39,679 nt of DNA, taken from assembly GCA_947627005.1 (NCBI GenBank), contig CANQUJ010000017.1, positions 1 through 39,679 on the forward strand. Reading direction: 5' to 3'. Shown in pieces: positions 4,807 to 39,679 of the stretch (position 1 is the stretch's first letter; each line of letters starts with the position of its first letter). The DNA comes from an uncultured Clostridia bacterium (lineage in GTDB: Bacteria; Bacillota; Clostridia; Oscillospirales; Ruminococcaceae). The notes below the pieces were generated by a model, which had not been told where the DNA came from, did no database searches, and worked only from the letters and a program-made list of their open reading frames with translations. Made by a program: the position numbers and the translations under genes.

Positions 4807-4903
4807 TAAAGCGAAATAAAAGCCGGCTTTGAATAAGAACCGCGGCGCAACGGGGCGACGCGGCGATGTTGGAGCCGTTTTTTGTATAATGGCGGGTGAT
4901 AAT

Positions 4904-5722
4904 TTGAGCAAAAAGAAAAAAATCATAAGCGCCGCGATATTCGCCGCCGTGATAATCCTGCTTTTGGTCGGGATAATCCTTATCCCCGGGCAGGAAAAAG
5001 AGCCGATAAAAGAGGCCATGCGAGACGGCGTTCTTCACGAAAGGGCGAAGATCTCGCTCTTCGGACTAAGCGTAAACCCGGGGCTGATCTCGGCCTACGC
5101 CGTTTCCGCGATAATAATCCTTTTCGCGATATTCGTCCGAATCTTCGCGATACCACGGTTTAAAGAAATCCCCGGGAAGTTCCAGCTTTTACTTGAGACC
5201 GCGGTGAAATATTTCTCCGGCCTTGCGAAGCAGAACAGCCCCCACCGAAACGGTTTTTTGGGCGGATACGTCTTCACCGCCGGGGTTTACGTCGCTTTCA
5301 GCACGGTGTTCGAGCTTTTCGGGCTTCAGGCGGTTACTACCGAAGGATTATCCACCACCCTCCCCGCCCCGCTGGCGGACATTAACGGCGCGATAGCGAT
5401 GGGCTTTATGTCCTACGGAGTGATTCTTATAAGCGGGATAATCTACGGCAAGGCGCACGGCGCGATCAACGCGCTTAAAGACTTTTCGCTGCCGATATCC
5501 ATGAGCTTCAGGCTTTTCGGCGCGCTTTTAAGCGGCGCCCTCGTGACCGACCTCGTATACCACTACCTCCCCCTAAGCTTCGTTCTGCCCTCGGTGGTCG
5601 CGGTTTTGTTCACCCTTTTGCACGCGATAATACAGACCTATGTTTTAACGATGCTCGTCTCGGTATTTTACGGTGAGAGCACCGAGGAACACCATAAAAA
5701 AATCAAAGCCGAAAGGAAATGA
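4904..5722 (+). CDS. atpB: ATP synthase F0 subunit a
   Basis: Subunit a forms the two half-channels that bring ions to the c-ring. It is predicted at 272 residues from TTG 4904. The essential stator arginine is R203 in SFRLFG, and Q244 lies in the last helix (HAIIQTYVLTML). Five or six membrane helices are visible: about 7-27, 61-83, 120-140, 163-183, 195-215 and 225-256. The start is a choice between ATG 4889 (weak site) and TTG 4904, which sits 7 nt behind GGCGGGTGAT, a good match to the anti-Shine-Dalgarno sequence. I prefer TTG, and the two differ by five residues. It is the first gene of the operon, with no atpI before it. The stop overlaps the region where atpE begins. Confidence 0.92.
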   Translation: MSKKKKIISAAIFAAVIILLLVGIILIPGQEKEPIKEAMRDGVLHERAKISLFGLSVNPGLISAYAVSAIIILFAIFVRIFAIPRFKEIPGKFQLLLETAVKYFSGLAKQNSPHRNGFLGGYVFTAGVYVAFSTVFELFGLQAVTTEGLSTTLPAPLADINGAIAMGFMSYGVILISGIIYGKAHGAINALKDFSLPISMSFRLFGALLSGALVTDLVYHYLPLSFVLPSVVAVLFTLLHAIIQTYVLTMLVSVFYGESTEEHHKKIKAERK

Positions 5723-5727
5723 TTAAA

Positions 5728-6084
5728 ATGAAAATTATCAAGACATTGACCGCTATCCTTCTCGTAGCTCTGCTCGCCCTTTCGATGAGCGCGGCGGTAT
5801 TCGCCGACGGGGCCGAAGCCCCCGCTGCCGCTTCATCGCAGGCGGATTCGGAGAACACCGTTCGCGACTATAAGGCCATTGCGGCCGCGCTTATAATCGG
5901 GATCGCGGCGGCGGCCGGCGCGATAGGCATGGCGATGACGATTATGAAGACGATCGACGGAATAGCAAGGCAGCCCGAGGCGGCCTCGAATATCCGCTCG
6001 GCGATGATGCTCGGCCTTGTTTTTATCGAGACCGCTATCATCTACGCCCTTATCGTGGCGATACTCGTAGTATTCGTACTTTAA
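5728..6084 (+). CDS. atpE: ATP synthase F0 subunit c with signal-peptide-like N-terminus
   Basis: This is the rotor-ring proteolipid. The 118-residue product is longer than the usual 70-90. Residues 1-27 look like a cleavable signal peptide (KIIK, a hydrophobic stretch, then AAVFADG), followed by an Ala/Ser linker and two helices at about 48-76 and 92-118. The polar loop RQPEA (81-85) and the ion carboxylate E101 in FIETAIIYAL are present. E101-T102 and Y106 resemble sodium-type c subunits, but the helix-1 position normally holding Gln is M68, so the coupling ion is undecided. AAAGGA is 10 nt before ATG 5728 but only 1 nt before ATG 5719, so 5728 is the better start. Ribosomes leaving atpB would reach it directly. 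Confidence 0.92.
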   Translation: MKIIKTLTAILLVALLALSMSAAVFADGAEAPAAASSQADSENTVRDYKAIAAALIIGIAAAAGAIGMAMTIMKTIDGIARQPEAASNIRSAMMLGLVFIETAIIYALIVAILVVFVL

Positions 6085-6102: not shown

Positions 6103-6588
6103 GTGCCGCTCAATATAGATATTCAGCAGATACTTCTTCACGCGCTGAACTTCGTCATTCTCTTCGCGGCGCTCTGGTTTTTGCTTTATAAGCCGATAAA
6201 GAATTTTATCGACAAAAGGGAAAGCGAATATAAAAAGGCCGCCGACGAGGCCGCGCGCAAACTTAAAGAGGCCGACGACGCCCTTGCGGGGCTTGATTCC
6301 GCCCTTGCGGAAAAGGAAGAGGCCGCAAAGCGCGAACGGGGCGAGATTTTGGCGGAGGCGCAGAAGCAGTATTCCGAAAAGATAGCCGAGGCCGAAAAAG
6401 AGGCCGAAAGAATAGTCGGCGACGCCAAGGCAGAGGCCGAAGCGATCCGCGAAAAGGCGATAAAAGCCAGCAAGGACGACATATCCGAGCTTGCGGTCGA
6501 ATCGGTCGGAAAGGCCGTTATGTCGAGCGCGGGCGAAGCTTTTGAGGCTTTCTTGGCGGCAGTCGAAAAGGAAGAAAAGCATGAGTGA
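6103..6588 (+). CDS. atpF: ATP synthase F0 subunit b
   Basis: Subunit b is the peripheral stalk. This 161-residue protein has one membrane helix (about 12-33, [15 protein letters not shown]) and then a long Ala/Glu/Lys-rich coiled coil (about 38-140) with the usual [11 protein letters not shown] segment near the C-terminus. Translation starts at GTG 6103 with GGGAGGG 7 nt upstream. It overlaps atpA by 8 bp. The protein carries no delta-like domain, so it is not the b-delta fusion known from mycobacteria. In most bacteria atpH (delta) would come next, but here it does not. Confidence 0.93.
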
Positions 6589-8314
6589 TTCCGAAAGACT
6601 AAAAGCGCTGCTCTATTCCGCAGAGCCGCCCACGCCCGAACAGCGCCGGCGATTCGAGCGGTTTATAGAGCTTCACTATAAAGAGCGCTGCTATTTCGTA
6701 TGGATCCGCGATATGAACACGGTCGACGGCTTCAGACTCGAGGTCGGGTCGGACGTTTACGACTGGAGTTCCCGCGGGATATTAAAGCAGCTTACCGACA
6801 AGCTGCGCTCCGTCCGCCCCGCCGAAGGGCAGGAGGTCATCCCTCTTTTAAAACAGGCGGTGGACGAATTTGAGCCGCAGCCCTATCCGGAGGAGATAGG
6901 AACGGTTATAACCGTGGGCGACGGAGTCGCGGCGGTTCGCGGAATCAACCGCGCCTCGTACGGAGAGATTTTGATCTTCGAGGGCGGGGTCCGCGGAATG
7001 GTCCAGAACATCTCTAAAGGTGAGCTCGGCTGCGTTTTGTTCGACGGCGACGATTCCGTCTCCGCCGGAAGCCGGGTTCACCGAACCGGCAGAGCGGCCG
7101 GGGTCCCGGTCGGCGAAAGCTTTATCGGAAGGGTCACCGACGCGCTCGGGGTCCCGATAGATGGCAAGGGCGAAATTCTGCCCTCGGGGTATCTTCCGGT
7201 AGAAAGCCCCGCGCCGAGCATAGCCGCAAGGCAGCCGGTCAACAAGCCGCTTAAGACCGGCCTTTTGTGCATAGATTCGATGTTTCCGATCGGAAGGGGC
7301 CAGCGCGAGCTTATCATCGGCGACCGCCAGACCGGCAAGACCGCCATCGCGGTGGACACGATTCTGAACCAAAAAGACAGCGGAGTTATCTGCATATACG
7401 TCGCCATCGGCCAAAAGGCGAGCTCGGTAAGAAGGCTCGTCGGAACGCTTGAAGAGCACGGCGCGATGGACTATACGATAGTCATGCTCGCCTCGGCGAG
7501 CGATTCCGCGCCGATGCAGTATATCGCGCCTTACGCGGGCTGCGCCATGGCGGAATATTTTATGAACCAGGGCAAGGACGTCTTGATCATATACGACGAC
7601 CTTTCAAAACACGCCGTGGCGTATCGCTCGCTAAGCCTTGTTTTGGGAAGAAGCCCGGGGCGCGAGGCTTATCCCGGGGACGTTTTCTATCTTCATTCTC
7701 GGCTTTTGGAGCGCTCGGCGCACCTTTCTGCCGCGCACGGCGGCGGAAGCATGACCGCCCTGCCGATAGTCGAGACCCTTGCGGGAAACGTTTCGGCGTA
7801 TATCCCGACCAACATAATTTCCATCACCGACGGCCAGATATTCCTCGATTCGGCGCTGTTCCGATCCGGCCAAAGGCCGGCGGTAAACGTCGGGCTTTCG
7901 GTCTCGCGAGTCGGCGGCGACGCGATGACCCCCTGCCTTAAAGCGGCGGCGGGCTCGCTTAGATTAGAGCTTGCGCAGTATCGCGAGATGAAGGTTTTTA
8001 CCCAGTTTTCAAACTATCTCGACGACGAGATGCAGAAAAATCTTCGATTCGGCGAAACCCTTATGGGAATTTTAAAGCAGGAGCAATACCGCCCATACGA
8101 AGAGTGGAAGCAGGTGTTTATCCTTACCGCCGCGATAGAAGGGCTTCTTGAGGGGTTTGTCGGCGACCGATTCGGCGACAAGCTCGATCGGCTTTGCCGA
8201 AAATTCGGCGAAAGCAGGCCGGATATAGTCGAGCGGATAGAGAGCGGCGCTAAGCTTTCGGAGCGGGACGCGGCGGATATCGCGGAATTTGCGAGGGCGG
8301 CCGGAAATGTTTAA
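6581..8314 (+). CDS. atpA: ATP synthase F1 alpha subunit fused to a delta C-terminal domain
   Basis: The 577-residue protein is about 75 longer than a normal alpha subunit. Residues about 83-577 are a complete alpha: the N-terminal helix ([13 protein letters not shown]), beta-barrel [12 protein letters not shown]-loop GDRQTGKT (247-254), [20 protein letters not shown], and the arginine finger R443 in SVSRVGG. Residues about 15-78 match the C-terminal domain of delta/OSCP: a TPEQ helix, then D-x-N-x-V-D-GF-x-L-x-VGSDVYD and a final amphipathic helix [12 protein letters not shown]. The delta N-terminal helical domain is absent. ATG 6581 has AAAAGGAAG upstream and overlaps atpF by 8 bp. No free-standing atpH exists in the operon. 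The alpha call is certain. The delta-CTD assignment rests on motif reading, not on a search. Confidence 0.93.
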
Positions 8315-9209
8315 CGAATACGAGCTTAGAAACAGAATAAGCTCTATCGGCGAGACCCAGAAGATCACCGGGGCGATGTATCTTATCGCCTCTAACGAGC
8401 TTAGGCGCGCAAAGGCGGCATACGACGAGACCAAGCCCTATTTCGACGCCATTCGCGCCGAGATAAAGATGATCTTCCGCGGGACTAACAAAGAGATAGA
8501 CAGCAAATACTACTACCCCGCCGACGGCGGCCGCCTTTCGGAGGGGACCTACGGCATTTTGGTCGTCACCGCGGACAAGGGGCTTGCCGGGGCTTATAAC
8601 CGAAACGTCATAAAAGAGGCCGAAAAGGCCCTTGAAGAGCACGAAAACACCAAGCTTTTCGTAGTCGGAAGCTACGGCCGGAAGTATTTTTCGGCGAAAA
8701 ACATACCCTTTGAGGCGGATTTTGAATATTCCGCCCAAAGCCCGACCCTTCACCGAGCGAGAAAAATAGCCTCTACCCTGCTCTCTCGCTTTGATTCGGG
8801 CGAGCTTTCAAAGCTGTTCGTCATTTATACCGACTTTAAAAACGACGCCGTTCAGGACGTCAAAAACGAGCGTATGCTGCCCTTTCACCGAAGAGAATTT
8901 CTTTCGGAGGAAGAGCCCGACGGCGAGCCGTATAAATTCTTCCCGACCGAAAAAGAGGTCTTGGAGGCTATCGTTCCGAGCTATGTCTGCGGATATGTAT
9001 ACAGCGCCCTTACCGGCAGCTTTTTAAGCGAGCAGCGCTCGAGAATGGCGGCGATGGAGGCCGCAGACCAAAGCGCGAGGGATATGCTCGATATGTTGAG
9101 CTTTGAATACAACAGGCTCAGGCAGAGCGAAATAACCCGCGAAATAACCGAAATTTCCGCCGCTTCGCGGTTCCAGCGCGAACGCAAAAACAAACGGCAA
9201 GAGGGGTGA
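8307..9209 (+). CDS. atpG: ATP synthase F1 gamma subunit
   Basis: Gamma is the central rotor shaft. The 300-residue protein begins with the family helix [21 protein letters not shown], contains the [13 protein letters not shown] Rossmann-like core, and ends with the conserved helix [20 protein letters not shown]. The C-terminus carries a short basic tail (RERKNKR) where many gammas end in an AGA-rich stretch. It starts at ATG 8307, inside the last codons of atpA (8-bp overlap), with GAGGGCGG upstream, so it is translationally coupled to alpha. Confidence 0.95.
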
Positions 9210-11014
<1,805 letters not shown>

Positions 11015-24836: not shown

Positions 24837-25621
24837 AAATTCGGTGCAGCGCGGGAACATGCTCTGCGATTAACAACGGTTAATGCCGGCCCTACCATAG
24901 CCGCCAATGCCCCTGTAAAAAGGTATCCCCTCGCCGCAGCGAGGGGATAATATTTTTAGACGCCATGCCACCGGCGGGGTTTGCAAGAAAGGGAAACAAA
25001 GCAAAGGGCACGTCTACCGACACGCGGCTAAAAGGACTTTGCGAAGGCGAGCGAGTATATCTGTGCCGATAAGTTTTTCCCGCCCGCGCCTCCCGCCGTG
25101 AAAAGGTATTCGCTTCGCGAACGGCATTTTAAGCTGCCGGAAGGGGTTAAGCCCGGAAAATTCCCGCCCGCCGTCCCACGCGTAAAGGTATTCGCTGCGC
25201 TCATACTATTTTGAGTCACCCCACCCCCGCAAAGCTTTGAGCTAAAGTATAAAAAGTGTAGCCCCCGCCCCTCGAGGGGCGGGGGCGCGAGCAAAGCGAG
25301 AGGGGGTGGGGTGTTCAAGGCGCAAGCGCAACCTTTACACAGCGACGGACTTGGTATGTGCGCCGAATGGCGCATGGCCGCGCCGTTTCCCTCTGTTTCG
25401 GTTAGGAACAAAAGTCCTTCTACGAAGGCGCGGCTACCGTCAGCGTTTCAAGGGGAGAAAGAAGTCGGGCAAAGGCGGTAGTCTGCGTAAGCAGACCCGA
25501 GGCAAAGCCGAGGCGCCTTTGCAAACGCCGCGTGACTAAGTTACCTCGGTGCAACGTCTGACGCGGCGTTTCCCTCTTTGGTGTGTCTTTTCGCTTCACT
25601 TTTCTGCACAAGCAGAAAAGT

Positions 25622-25862
25622 GAAGGAGCCCCGCCCCTCGAGGGGCGGGGTGAGGGGGTGGGGTGGCTTTAAATAGTATGAGGCGTTAGCCGAATTCCTT
25701 TTAGCAGCGGGTCGGCGGGCGGGAACGCACTTTGGTTCTGATTTACACCATGTTTGATAGAAATGCCCCCTCCCCGCGGGAGGGGGTAGGGGGTGGGCGG
25801 TTAAAAATAGCATCCCCTCGCAAAGCGAGGGGATACCTTTTAACGGCGGGACGGCGGGCGGG
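25622..25862. repeat. Two adjacent right-end repeat modules
   Basis: The first module is CCCCTCGAGGGG, GGGGTGGGGTG, AAATAGTATGAGGCG...CCTTTTAGCAGCGGG and GGCGGGCGGGAA. The second (25740-25862) begins with ACACCATGTTTGATAG and a CCCGCGGG palindrome, then AAATAGCAT...TACCTTTTAACGGCGGG. The second module has a near-identical direct copy at 36905-37000. Confidence 0.7.
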
Positions 25863-26089
25863 ATATAATTATCGGCGTTTTGAAACCGCTTAGAGCTTCC
25901 AAATATCCCTCGGCGCGGCCGAGGATCTTTTAATTGGGCGTAATTGGGCGGCTGCGCGCCTTGTTTTTAAGCACAAGCCGGTGAGCTCCACAGAAAGCCT
26001 CGCGCAGAGCGCTTTAATCGTCGCGCCGCCTCCCCTCCCTTTCAATTTCAATTTCGATTTTTTTCAAAAGAAACCATAATTTAAAACCG

Positions 26090-35893: not shown

Positions 35894-36354
35894 GGAGGGG
35901 GAGAAAAAGCGCGATTCCATATGTAAAAAGGTACTCGGCTGCGCCTCGTATTATTTAAACACCATCAAAAGTTGCCATTTGTTGACAAAGTTTTGCCCGC
36001 CCGCAGCCGCCGCGATGTGAAAAGGGATTCGCGAAGCGAATGGCGGTTTAAGCAGCCTGACAGAGTTGAGATAGGAAATTTCCAGCCCGCCGCTGTCCCG
36101 ATTAAAAGGTACTCGGCTTTGCCGAGTGCTATTTCTATTACATACTCACGGTGCACACTTAGAAATATGACGAGTTCCCGCTCGCGCCTCCCGTCGCAAA
36201 AAGGTATTCGCTTCGCTCATACTATTTAAGACGCCCACCCCCTCCCCCCTCCCGCGGGGAGGGGGGGAATTCAGCCCTCCGGGTTTGTGCTTAAATTGAG
36301 ATGTACTTCCGCCCGATGTGAAAAGGAACTCGGCTTCGCCGAGTACTATTTGAA

Positions 36355-36450
36355 CCGCTCCGCCCATGTAGGGAGACCGCCGAAGCGGGCTCGCAGCGAC
36401 GCTGGCAAACAAGACCTTTATTTCAACGTTTTGGGCGTCGCTTGCACCCC
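36355..36450 (+). repeat. Left arm of a long inverted repeat
   Basis: This arm begins CCGCTCCGCCCATGTAGGGA and ends GGGCGTCGCTTGCACCCC. It is the reverse complement of 36715-36812 except for a 2-base insertion in that arm. Confidence 0.9.
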
Positions 36451-36714
36451 ACCCCCGCAAAGTTTTGCGCGAAAGTATAAAAAAGCGCCGCCCCGCCCCT
36501 CGAGGGGCGGGGGCACGAGCGAAGCGAGAGGGGTGGGGTGGTTTTGAATAGTATGAGGCGTTAGCCGAATACCTTTTTACAGCGGGCGGCTGTGGGCGGG
36601 ACAAAAATTCAGAATTTTTCAACCATTTATAGCGTCCAAAAACATCATAGCGCTCTACGCGATACCTTTTCGCATGATTGCCGCTGTGCCGGATCACTTC
36701 CCCGCGGGAGGGGT

Positions 36715-36812
36715 GGGGTGCAAGCGACGCCCAAAACGTTGAAATAAAGGTCTTGTTTGCCAGCGTCGCTGCGAGCCCGCCTTTCGGCGGTCTCCCTACA
36801 TGGGCGGAGCGG
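36715..36812 (-). repeat. Right arm of a long inverted repeat
   Basis: Reverse complement of the left arm with a CTTT/TT length difference near 36781. The two arms are separated by 264 bp holding palindromic modules. Confidence 0.9.
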
Positions 36813-37281
36813 CTAGAAATAGCATACCCCCGAACGAGCGGTTAGCGAGTTCGCGGGTATACCTTTTACGCGCGGGCCGGCGGGCGGGAATGTACATTAT
36901 TTTTGATTTAACACCATGTTTGATAGAAATGCCCCCTCCCCGCGGGAGGGGGCAGGGGGAGGGCGTCTTAAATAGTATGAGCGAAGCGAATACCTTTTAG
37001 CAAGGGCAGCGGCGGTTTGGGTGGGGAAATAAATCTCACATCTAAACACAGCAAGGTGGTTGTCCGCTAAAATTCATCGCGCCCCGCGCGATTCCTTTAA
37101 GCAGCGGGTCGGTGGGCGGGAATTTTATTATGTTGTTCGGCAATTTAGTTCGGATCTCCGCAGCCCAGCACCTTTTATCAGTTGGCGCAGTAGGTTTGGT
37201 CTGTGGGCTGCCTCATTTTAAGCGGTCAACCCGCCGCCTTCCCTTTCGTACCACTTCCCCTCTATCGCGCCATTGCGCTAA

Positions 37282-38334: not shown

Positions 38335-38653
38335 AGTCTTTGTCATTATATGCCGCGCAGCCGCTTTGAGTCAACGAAGTTAATATTTAATCTTTGACCG
38401 AACTTTTCCGCTTATTTGAAGGGCTTGCGAAATCTTATATAACCTTCGCCGCCCGAACGGCTCCGCAGACTTTTCAAGCCGCCTTCGACTGTCTCGCCGC
38501 GCGCAAAAAGCCGAAATCGCAAAGATTTTTAGCGGACTGCGAACAGTCCGCGATTTTTTAAAAACGCCGAAAGCCCACCGCCGGACTGCTGCCCGACGGC
38601 GGGCACTTTCTATGAATCTGACAAAATTGCAATACAATTTGTATAATTCAGCC

Positions 38654-38800
38654 TTGAATCGACAAATTGTAGCGCGATTTTTCTCTTCAAGCTGCCGCCC
38701 GATCGGCCACGCAGACTTTTCAAGCCGCCTTCGACTGTCTCGCCGCGAAAAAAGCCGATATCGCAAAGATTTTTAGCGGACTGCGAACAGTCCGCGATTT
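38654..38800 (+). ncRNA. Candidate small RNA 1 (antisense to the spoVT 3' end)
   Basis: The predicted promoter is CTGACA (38618-38623), 18 nt, TATAAT (38642-38647). The predicted terminator is GCGGACTG-CGAA-CAGTCCGC (38776-38795) plus GATTTT. The RNA would carry an 18-base segment complementary to the spoVT mRNA 3' end, with one mismatch. This is inference from signals only. Confidence 0.35.
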
Positions 38801-38898
38801 TCAAAAAAGCGCCGAAAGCCCACCGCCGGACTTTTGCCCGACGGCGGGCGTTTTCTATGAATCTGACAAAATCACAATACAATTTGTATAATTCAGCC

Positions 38899-39049
38899 TA
38901 AAATCGACAAATTGTAGCGCGGATTTTACTCTTCGAGCTGCCGCCCGATCGGCTCCGCAGACTTTTCAATCCGCCTTCGACTGTTTCGCAGCGCAAAAAA
39001 TCCGATATCGCAATGATTTTTAGCGGACTGCGAACAGTCCGCGCTTTTT
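38899..39049 (+). ncRNA. Candidate small RNA 2 (antisense to the spoVT 3' end)
   Basis: Promoter CTGACA (38863-38868), 18 nt, TATAAT (38887-38892). Terminator hairpin 39023-39042 followed by TTTTT. It carries a 27-base exact match to 39166-39192, so it would be fully complementary to the spoVT mRNA around its stop codon. Confidence 0.38.
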
Positions 39050-39107
39050 AAAAACGCCGAAAGCCCACCGCCGGACTTCTGCCCGACGGCGGGCGTTTTC
39101 TATGAAT

Positions 39108-39137
39108 CTGACAAAATCGCAATACTAATTGTATAAT
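39108..39137 (+). promoter_or_regulatory. Candidate antisense promoter facing into spoVT
   Basis: CTGACA (39108-39113), 18 nt, TATAAT (39132-39137). Its transcript would start near 39144 and run antisense through the spoVT 3' end. Confidence 0.4.
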
Positions 39138-39169
39138 TCAGCCTAAAATCGACAAATTGTAGCGTGATT

Positions 39170-39679
39170 TTACTCTTCGAGCTGCCGCCCGAGGAACATC
39201 GCCGCGGTCTGCGCGAGGGTTAGCTGGAGCTGCGTGCCCTTTGAGGAGCTCTCGGGCGCCATAAAGCAGACCGCCCCCGCGATGTCGCCCATTGCGATTA
39301 TCGGCGAGACCGCGACCGCGTGTTTTTGAACGCCCTCGACCGGCAGAAGCGGCTTGCCGTCGCCCTCGTAGACCCAGCCCTTGCGGGTCTCCAAGAGCTC
39401 TTCGAGCCCCGGCGAGAGCCGCCTTTCGCCGTATTCCTTTTTTTGCAGCCCAGAGACCGCAACGACGTGGTCGCGGTCGAATATGACGACCGGCGCCGAC
39501 CCGAGCTTGTGTATAACCTCGGCGGCCGAGCCCGCGTTTTCCGACATCTCGGAGATCGGCGAGTATTTTTTAAAGATGACCTCGCCCTCGCTGTTGGTGT
39601 ATATTTCAAGCGGGTCGCCCTCGCGGATTCGCATAGTGCGGCGTATCTCCTTCGGGATAACGACCCTGCCCAGATCGTC
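39170..39679 (-). CDS. spoVT: Stage V sporulation regulator SpoVT (5' end outside window)
   Basis: The 3' part of 169 codons is present. The first visible residues DDLGRVVIPKEIRRTMRIREGDPLEIY are the AbrB-type swapped-hairpin DNA-binding domain, lacking only about the first ten residues (in known SpoVT, MKATGIVRRI-like). A linker and a C-terminal GAF-like domain (about 60-169: APVVIFDRDHVVAVSG, VSPIIAMGDIAGAVCFM, LAQTAAMFLGRQLEE) follow. SpoVT adjusts forespore sigma-G genes during endospore formation, so this points to a spore-forming lineage. The stop lies inside the last tandem unit. Confidence 0.93.
   Translation of the reverse strand, partial: DDLGRVVIPKEIRRTMRIREGDPLEIYTNSEGEVIFKKYSPISEMSENAGSAAEVIHKLGSAPVVIFDRDHVVAVSGLQKKEYGERRLSPGLEELLETRKGWVYEGDGKPLLPVEGVQKHAVAVSPIIAMGDIAGAVCFMAPESSSKGTQLQLTLAQTAAMFLGRQLEE

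Follow-up and report, generated by a model that had tools for sequence, protein, structure and literature searches.

A predicted fusion of the delta C-terminal domain to ATP synthase alpha in an uncultured Clostridia bacterium and other Bacillota

Introduction

An ATP synthase operon on contig CANQUJ010000017.1 of an uncultured Clostridia bacterium raises the question of how an F-type enzyme would be held together when no separate delta gene is found between b and alpha and the alpha product begins with additional N-terminal residues. The original prediction, made from the 39,679-nucleotide stretch of DNA that we refer to as the window, was that these residues are the C-terminal domain of delta/OSCP, and it asked how three such domains per enzyme could face one peripheral stalk. 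Here we asked what the extension is, how often such fusions occur, whether a free delta is encoded elsewhere in the same genomes, and which enzyme architecture best explains the pattern.

Results

The window operon has the order a-c-b-alpha-gamma-beta-epsilon, with each subunit matched by Pfam. Its features, given in window positions, are:

4889..5722, plus strand, subunit a (start TTG 4829 or ATG 4889; the 297-aa frame starting at 4829 matched PF00119 at E 8.4e-18)
5719..6084, plus strand, subunit c (121 aa; PF00137 E 3.3e-12, the match starting at residue 54)
6103..6588, plus strand, subunit b (161 aa, one single gene; PF00430 E 1.2e-15)
6581..8314, plus strand, fusion of delta(CTD) to alpha (577 aa), where CTD is the C-terminal domain
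6593..6805, plus strand, delta/OSCP C-terminal domain (residues 5-75; PF00213 positions 101-172)
6806..6898, plus strand, linker plus the N-terminal helix of alpha itself (residues 76-106; from the alignment of relatives and PDB alpha-chain matches)
6899..8314, plus strand, alpha core (PF00006 E 1e-80, PF00306, PF02874)
8307..9209, plus strand, subunit gamma (ATG at 8307; PF00231 E 2.5e-79 on 8310-9209)
9216..10604, plus strand, subunit beta (PF00006 E 1.5e-70; TIGR01039 769.7 bits; catalytic motifs present)
10601..11014, plus strand, subunit epsilon (PF02823 E 3.5e-18)

No delta ORF was recognised among the ORFs of this operon, as had been predicted, and the direct overlap of b with alpha was also borne out: the ATG of the fused alpha at 6581 precedes the b stop (6586-6588), and the frame stays open to 8314. 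The alpha core contains both the Walker A motif RQTGKT and SVSRVGG. TIGR00962 covers residues 84-566 at 661 bits, which together with the alignment of relatives bears out the claim that the extension precedes a full alpha that retains its own N-terminal helix, and in a profile search of PDB, alpha chains matched the family profile from profile position 83 onward. The channel arginine of subunit a is conserved within MSFRLFG. The operon encodes a complete F1Fo ATPase, probably of the proton type. The N-terminus of subunit a (4829-5722) is longer than that of the a subunit in the canonical operon described below and has an additional hydrophobic segment, and subunit c (5719-6084) has an N-terminal extension of ~40 aa that looks signal-peptide-like by eye.

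Elsewhere, the window contains a family of interspersed repeats, about 50-300 bases long and present in either orientation, that are 75-98% identical (516-1197, 2510-2829, 25068-25864 and 36060-37001); the same family was found in locus L003 (2192-2789 and 13232-13684) and on contig C11 of the same genome. A 245-base unit is repeated three times in tandem at 38448-39192 (92% matches) and touches the 3' end of a minus-strand ORF at 39170-39679.

When the extension was searched against Pfam, residues 5-75 matched positions 101-172 of the OSCP model PF00213, which correspond to the C-terminal half only. The score was 23.1 bits (E 8.9e-5) for the 99-aa N-terminal piece, just above the gathering score of 22.3, 18.4 bits (E 0.0024), below the cut-off, when the whole 577-aa protein was scanned, and 21.1 bits, again below the cut-off, in a genome-wide search; TIGR01145 matched over model positions 103-172 at 22.1 bits, below its cut-off of 57.5. 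Taken alone, the OSCP match of the window protein is modest. All 60 of 60 aligned relatives, however, matched OSCP within their N-terminal 115 aa at E <= 0.01 (best 5.5e-15), so the identity of the domain is settled by the family. In genome searches, 22 of the 26 fusions lacking the delta N-terminal domain (NTD) scored above the OSCP cut-off, with those from G000, G418, G034 and G059 below it. When a profile of the 60 relatives was searched against PDB, chains called ATP synthase subunit delta were matched with E values of about 2e-6. The best match was chain 9jc1_I (E 1.5e-12), on which family profile positions 9-115 aligned collinearly with chain residues 5-115, indicating that the linker to the alpha helix is similar in length. 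The delta NTD is missing both from the fusion, whose OSCP match starts at profile position 101, and from the window operon. The observation behind the original prediction is confirmed, and these results support its interpretation that the extension is the C-terminal domain of delta/OSCP, joined directly to alpha without the NTD.

Purifying selection was shown to act on the fused domain: finite dS was obtained for 7 of 12 pairs, several of them near saturation, and dN/dS in these 7 was 0.09-0.35. Its rate of evolution nevertheless exceeds that of the alpha core, with pN/pS of 0.38-0.51 compared to 0.22-0.27 when the window was compared with eight relatives.

The best PDB match, 9JC1, was deposited by Ueno et al. 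2025 and is an engineered Bacillus PS3 delta(CTD)-alpha fusion (PMC12229609). The delta NTD was deleted because it sits on the threefold axis, and the construct carried up to three peripheral stalks and three a subunits. Subunits a and b were up 2.2 fold and 1.8 fold, respectively, biochemistry indicated about two stalks on average, and H+/ATP was 5.8 compared to 3.0 (PMC12229609). Cryo-EM particles with 0, 1, 2 and 3 stalks made up 15, 51, 26 and 8%, so that the fusion does not force three (PMC12229609). Like the window fusion, the construct places an NTD-less delta C-terminal domain before a complete alpha; it is engineered, with the epsilon C-terminal domain removed, and it is for this construct that stoichiometry and H+/ATP were measured. 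The same source notes a natural NTD-less fusion in Acidaminococcus fermentans and two UniProt entries that look similar (G4Q3K6, A0A1I2C5T3), and its authors regard a natural multi-stalk structure as highly likely, awaiting experiment (PMC12229609). These three fusions, which we compared by description only, are NTD-less delta-alpha proteins like that of the window. The window protein has the features described for a delta(deltaN)-alpha fused FoF1, namely the C-terminal domain on alpha, an absent NTD and a complete alpha with its helix, and by this predicted architecture the window enzyme belongs to the natural fusion kind noted in print in 2025; the original prediction's question of whether the arrangement had been described is answered by a brief yes (PMC12229609).

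We also compared the window operon to other F-type classes. Its alpha and beta motifs are intact, as in canonical bacterial F-type enzymes, but the operon has no separate delta. Fusion of b to delta occurs in mycobacteria, and chains named 'ATP synthase subunit b-delta' were among the PDB matches of the family profile; in both arrangements the delta C-terminal domain is on another stator subunit, with b as the partner in one and alpha, present three times per enzyme, as the partner in the window. N-ATPases resemble the window operon in having no separate delta gene, and were rejected as the class of the window enzyme: against the 'alternate F1F0' models, alpha scored 599.6 bits (cut-off 750.5), beta 579.6 (752), gamma 80.9 (282.35) and c 29.8 (130.85), with epsilon, a and b also below their cut-offs. 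The N-ATPase gene order, beta-epsilon-X-X-a-c-b-alpha-gamma, differs from the window order as well, and according to ProAD N-ATPases have no delta, or a delta fused to b (PMC11738941).

Besides the window operon, its genome (2.07 Mb, 99.3% complete) carries another on contig C11, with the order (AtpI-like)-a-c-b-delta-alpha-gamma-beta-epsilon, headed by an AtpI-like ORF that was assigned by position. This canonical F-type operon shares the order of a, c, b, alpha, gamma, beta and epsilon with the window operon and differs from it by a separate, complete delta between b and alpha (OSCP E 4.8e-42). The original prediction had named a complete atpH elsewhere in the genome, together with close relatives lacking the extension, as the finding that would speak against it. 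While the window operon has no delta, an atpH is present on C11; yet the two same-genus genomes checked, G148 and G044, both carry the fusion (four further same-genus genomes lie outside this check).

The c subunits of the two operons differ at ion-site positions, in the numbering of I. tartaricus c: the C11 protein has E32, E65, T66, T67 and Y70, and the window protein M32, F63, E65, T66, A67 and Y70. The combination of E32, T or S66, T67 and Y70, which we take to be sodium-type with E replacing Q at position 32 as a variant, was present in all eight clostridial separate-delta c subunits compared (the ninth row was E. coli). Under the ProAD rule, which assigns proton type if any sodium residue is absent, the window c is predicted to be proton-type, and E32-type letters might also count as proton under a strict application (PMC11738941). 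Proton-type letters as a trait of the fusion were rejected, since the separate-delta sisters of the fused clade also have I32/A66; proton-like letters thus track the alpha clade, not the fusion. The signal-peptide-like extension of c is common to the window clade: a c subunit with M/F/E/T letters was found in 75 of 80 loci (the best 80 of the 576 candidates described below), and these have a median of 83 residues from the first ATG to RQPE, compared to 44 in nine separate-delta operons.

To see how common the fusion is, we sampled 197 genomes of the window's family, 134 of which encode alpha at E <= 1e-60. Inspection of loci identified the fusion in 22 of the 197: 14 NTD-less, 7 full delta-alpha and 1 b-delta(CTD)-alpha; one further family fusion (G047) was seen as a contig-end match only. 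In a phylum sample, at least 15 of 398 genomes had a fusion (window-clade model, E <= 1e-14), with that of G389 cut by a contig end. Including those from a class-level search (three Pfam-checked), fusions span 12 families. A wider scan gave 576 confirmed candidate loci, but it was queried with the fusion itself and is therefore not a frequency measure. Clostridia, Oscillospiraceae, Lachnospiraceae and other Bacillota are among the sources of the best 80 of these loci, and many of the samples were of animal gut. Delta was the best match of no ORF in these 80 loci, several of which are cut by contig ends. By these predicted proteins, the delta(CTD)-alpha fusion is recurrent and widespread in bacteria. 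A link to Rnf/Nqr-type pumps, considered because such pumps fit low-energy anaerobes, was rejected: PF03116 showed no association with the fusion, being present in 28 of the 30 genomes that have one and in 76 of 80 family genomes without a recognised fusion (80 of the 85 picked family genomes with alpha).

A single origin of the fusion was rejected by phylogenetic analysis, as uniting all 31 fused rows of a 60-row alpha-core tree costs 271 log units (p-AU 2e-50). Uniting the window clade with the high-GC lineage L087-L094, a group named after the tree was seen, was also rejected (p-AU 4e-4). A 63-row alpha tree that includes additional lineages requires 10 changes of the fused/separate state, and for the separate group 7 of them follow necessarily from well-supported branches. 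Both trees consist of hand-picked rows, and the counts cannot separate gain from loss. Seven loci with <350 aa of alpha, and near-identical rows, were left out beforehand. In genus g36, a full delta-alpha fusion (L079) and an NTD-less one (L080) are sisters at 100/99, and the separate-delta locus L022 adjoins them. The pattern fits a path from separate genes to a full fusion to NTD loss, whose direction we infer. Many separate-delta genomes, from a search that favours such cases, have delta and alpha in one frame with a stop between them, and because the two are one stop apart, stop loss could start a fusion.

We then searched for OSCP and gamma in 30 fusion genomes, 26 of them NTD-less and 4 with longer fusions that keep most of the NTD (OSCP matches starting at profile 18-26). 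Among the 26 NTD-less genomes, a free full-length delta occurs together with two gammas in thirteen, one of which is the window genome; the other thirteen have no other OSCP match above the cut-off and one gamma each, a count that disregards weak OSCP matches (E 0.1-0.5) in some genomes. The stand-alone set includes a genome that is a single contig and 100% complete (G217), one with gamma split over two frames (G075) and one with gamma cut by a contig end (G159). In the fused operon of G075 (L071, G075:C22), gamma lies in two frames and beta in three, from pseudogenes or assembly errors, and these broken frames make the genome weak evidence for a stand-alone enzyme. Three of the 4 longer fusions likewise stand alone. 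Among the best 80 of 576 loci, the alpha fusion was the sole OSCP match above the cut-off in 8 of 8 chosen genomes (Neglectibacter sp. X58, Colidextribacter sp. OB.20, Oscillibacter valericigenes An907, Pseudoflavonifractor sp. 60, Lachnospiraceae bacterium NE2001 and three Oscillospiraceae records) in a scan of OSCP matches only. The OSCP match in Lachnospiraceae bacterium NE2001 runs across an in-frame stop upstream.

Stand-alone fusion genomes indicate that a borrowed free delta is no general requirement. They bear on the idea that, in dual-operon genomes, the free delta of the canonical operon sits on the fused F1 and brings it back to one stalk. The 13 genomes with a full free delta, as well as retention of the alpha N-terminal helix, are in keeping with such a hybrid, but all 13 have two gammas, and thus another F-type enzyme of which the free delta may be a part, and the 13 others have no free delta to borrow. 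We regard the hybrid as improbable.

Another way to avoid three docking domains would be an internal start or proteolysis that yields free alpha, leaving the domain on one alpha of three. An in-frame ATG does occur in the linker/helix stretch of 57 of 107 fused alpha frames (some genomes being counted twice in this set), but internal starts are not conserved: an ATG or GTG preceded by a Shine-Dalgarno match of 5 of 6 is present there in only 9 of the 107, and its position varies, while 20 have no ATG, GTG or TTG in the stretch at all. The window has one GTG there, without a 5-of-6 Shine-Dalgarno match. Mixed alphas of this kind seem very improbable.

Two variants of the fusion were found outside the window. 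In nine genomes, G135, G143, G019, G592, G054, G151, G110, G189 and G1015 (loci L079, L081, L082, L085, L180-L183 and L202), alpha is fused to a delta whose NTD is complete or nearly so; some of these genomes have no other delta, and three NTDs per enzyme would be hard to fit on one axis. The second variant is a predicted b-delta(CTD)-alpha chain, identified in 3 of 395 genomes of the window's family:

L184:3118-5346, b-delta(CTD)-alpha, G120
L193:4115-6322, minus strand, b-delta(CTD)-alpha, G641
L194:4415-5074, b-delta(CTD)-alpha, G196, cut by contig end

Their operons have the order a-c-b'-[b-delta(CTD)-alpha]-gamma-beta(-epsilon), in which b' is a separate gene. The 743-aa chain of G120 has an N-terminal membrane helix, a charged coil, an OSCP match at 158-234 (E 1.4e-8, profile 97-171) and then alpha, and the best mean hydropathy of the membrane helix in the three chains is 2.2-2.5. 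In G641, Pfam matched ATP-synt_B at 4-107 (E 4.8e-5, 23.9 bits, below the cut-off of 28) and OSCP at 152-228 (E 1.8e-9), followed by alpha; the G120 chain matched the b model at E 0.033 only. Profile comparison aligned the N-terminal 46 residues of the triple fusion with the b N-terminus at 94% probability (E 9.5e-8). G641 (88% complete) and G196 (80% complete) have no other OSCP match, and G120 additionally carries a free delta. Among 391 class genomes, 0 of 8 matches started before model position 61, and the class-level matches inspected were other fusions or separate genes, with no b-delta(CTD)-alpha. Open PMC literature gave no pointer to a b-delta-alpha fusion, nor to any survey of delta-alpha fusions, and the b-delta(CTD)-alpha chain is apparently previously undescribed. 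If the chain stays intact, three b membrane helices would be present per alpha trimer and, with b', three stalks.

Discussion

The best and simplest explanation of these findings is probably a fused enzyme with up to three peripheral stalks, for which we infer the stalk number, the gear ratio and the direction. The peripheral-stalk docking domain of delta would be covalently part of every alpha, and in the absence of an NTD the symmetry would stay unbroken, so that the same b2 site is presented at the N-terminus of all three alphas. Because that site would be identical on three alphas, one to three stalks could assemble, each bringing its own subunit a, and protons per ATP would rise proportionally. 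The ions moved in one turn would then be the product of the c and a subunit numbers, a rule put forward after measurements on the engineered enzyme of Bacillus PS3 (PMC12229609). Such a low-gear enzyme could make ATP at low proton motive force or pump many protons per ATP, and in the window genome it would accompany a canonical enzyme whose c letters are sodium-like.

This reading is supported by the OSCP C-terminal match of the window protein and of all 60 relatives, the collinear alignment with the engineered chain, the genomes in which the fusion stands alone, the lack of a conserved internal start and the purifying selection on the domain. The membrane helix predicted on each alpha in the three b-delta(CTD)-alpha genomes also argues for up to three stalks. 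On the other side, the free delta of the window genome could in principle bind the fused alpha, and the nine NTD-retaining fusions are not predicted by the steric argument. The faster evolution of the fused domain relative to the alpha core also counts against this reading, and is in line with a rival one in which three fused domains are made, only one of them binds b2 and a, and the covalent link neutrally replaces the delta clamp. An operon with one a gene and one b gene would suit a single stalk, as would the roughly half of engineered particles that had one stalk (PMC12229609). However, by the same account the engineered NTD-less enzyme has no bar to further stalks and carries about two on average (PMC12229609), and a b-like membrane helix is fused to every alpha in three genomes. 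We consider a single stalk unlikely, though well worth weighing beside the preferred up-to-three-stalk enzyme.

A broader reading can be offered tentatively: the fusions may form a natural, repeatedly evolved three-stalk class, in which the window enzyme would be a proton-driven, high-H+/ATP machine beside a sodium-type canonical enzyme. Just as tentatively, the class may have arisen by delta-alpha fusion followed by NTD loss, with one lineage adding a b helix and so gaining one membrane anchor per alpha.

The survey widens a three-entry remark in PMC12229609 into a broad recurrent pattern and points to strains in which the fusion is the sole OSCP protein found. The topology of the predicted b-delta(CTD)-alpha chain by itself argues for three membrane anchors. 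If stalks and a subunits number two or three in natural enzymes, cells would have a second way to set the proton cost of ATP, and if the multi-stalk reading is true, the textbook stoichiometry would not be universal.
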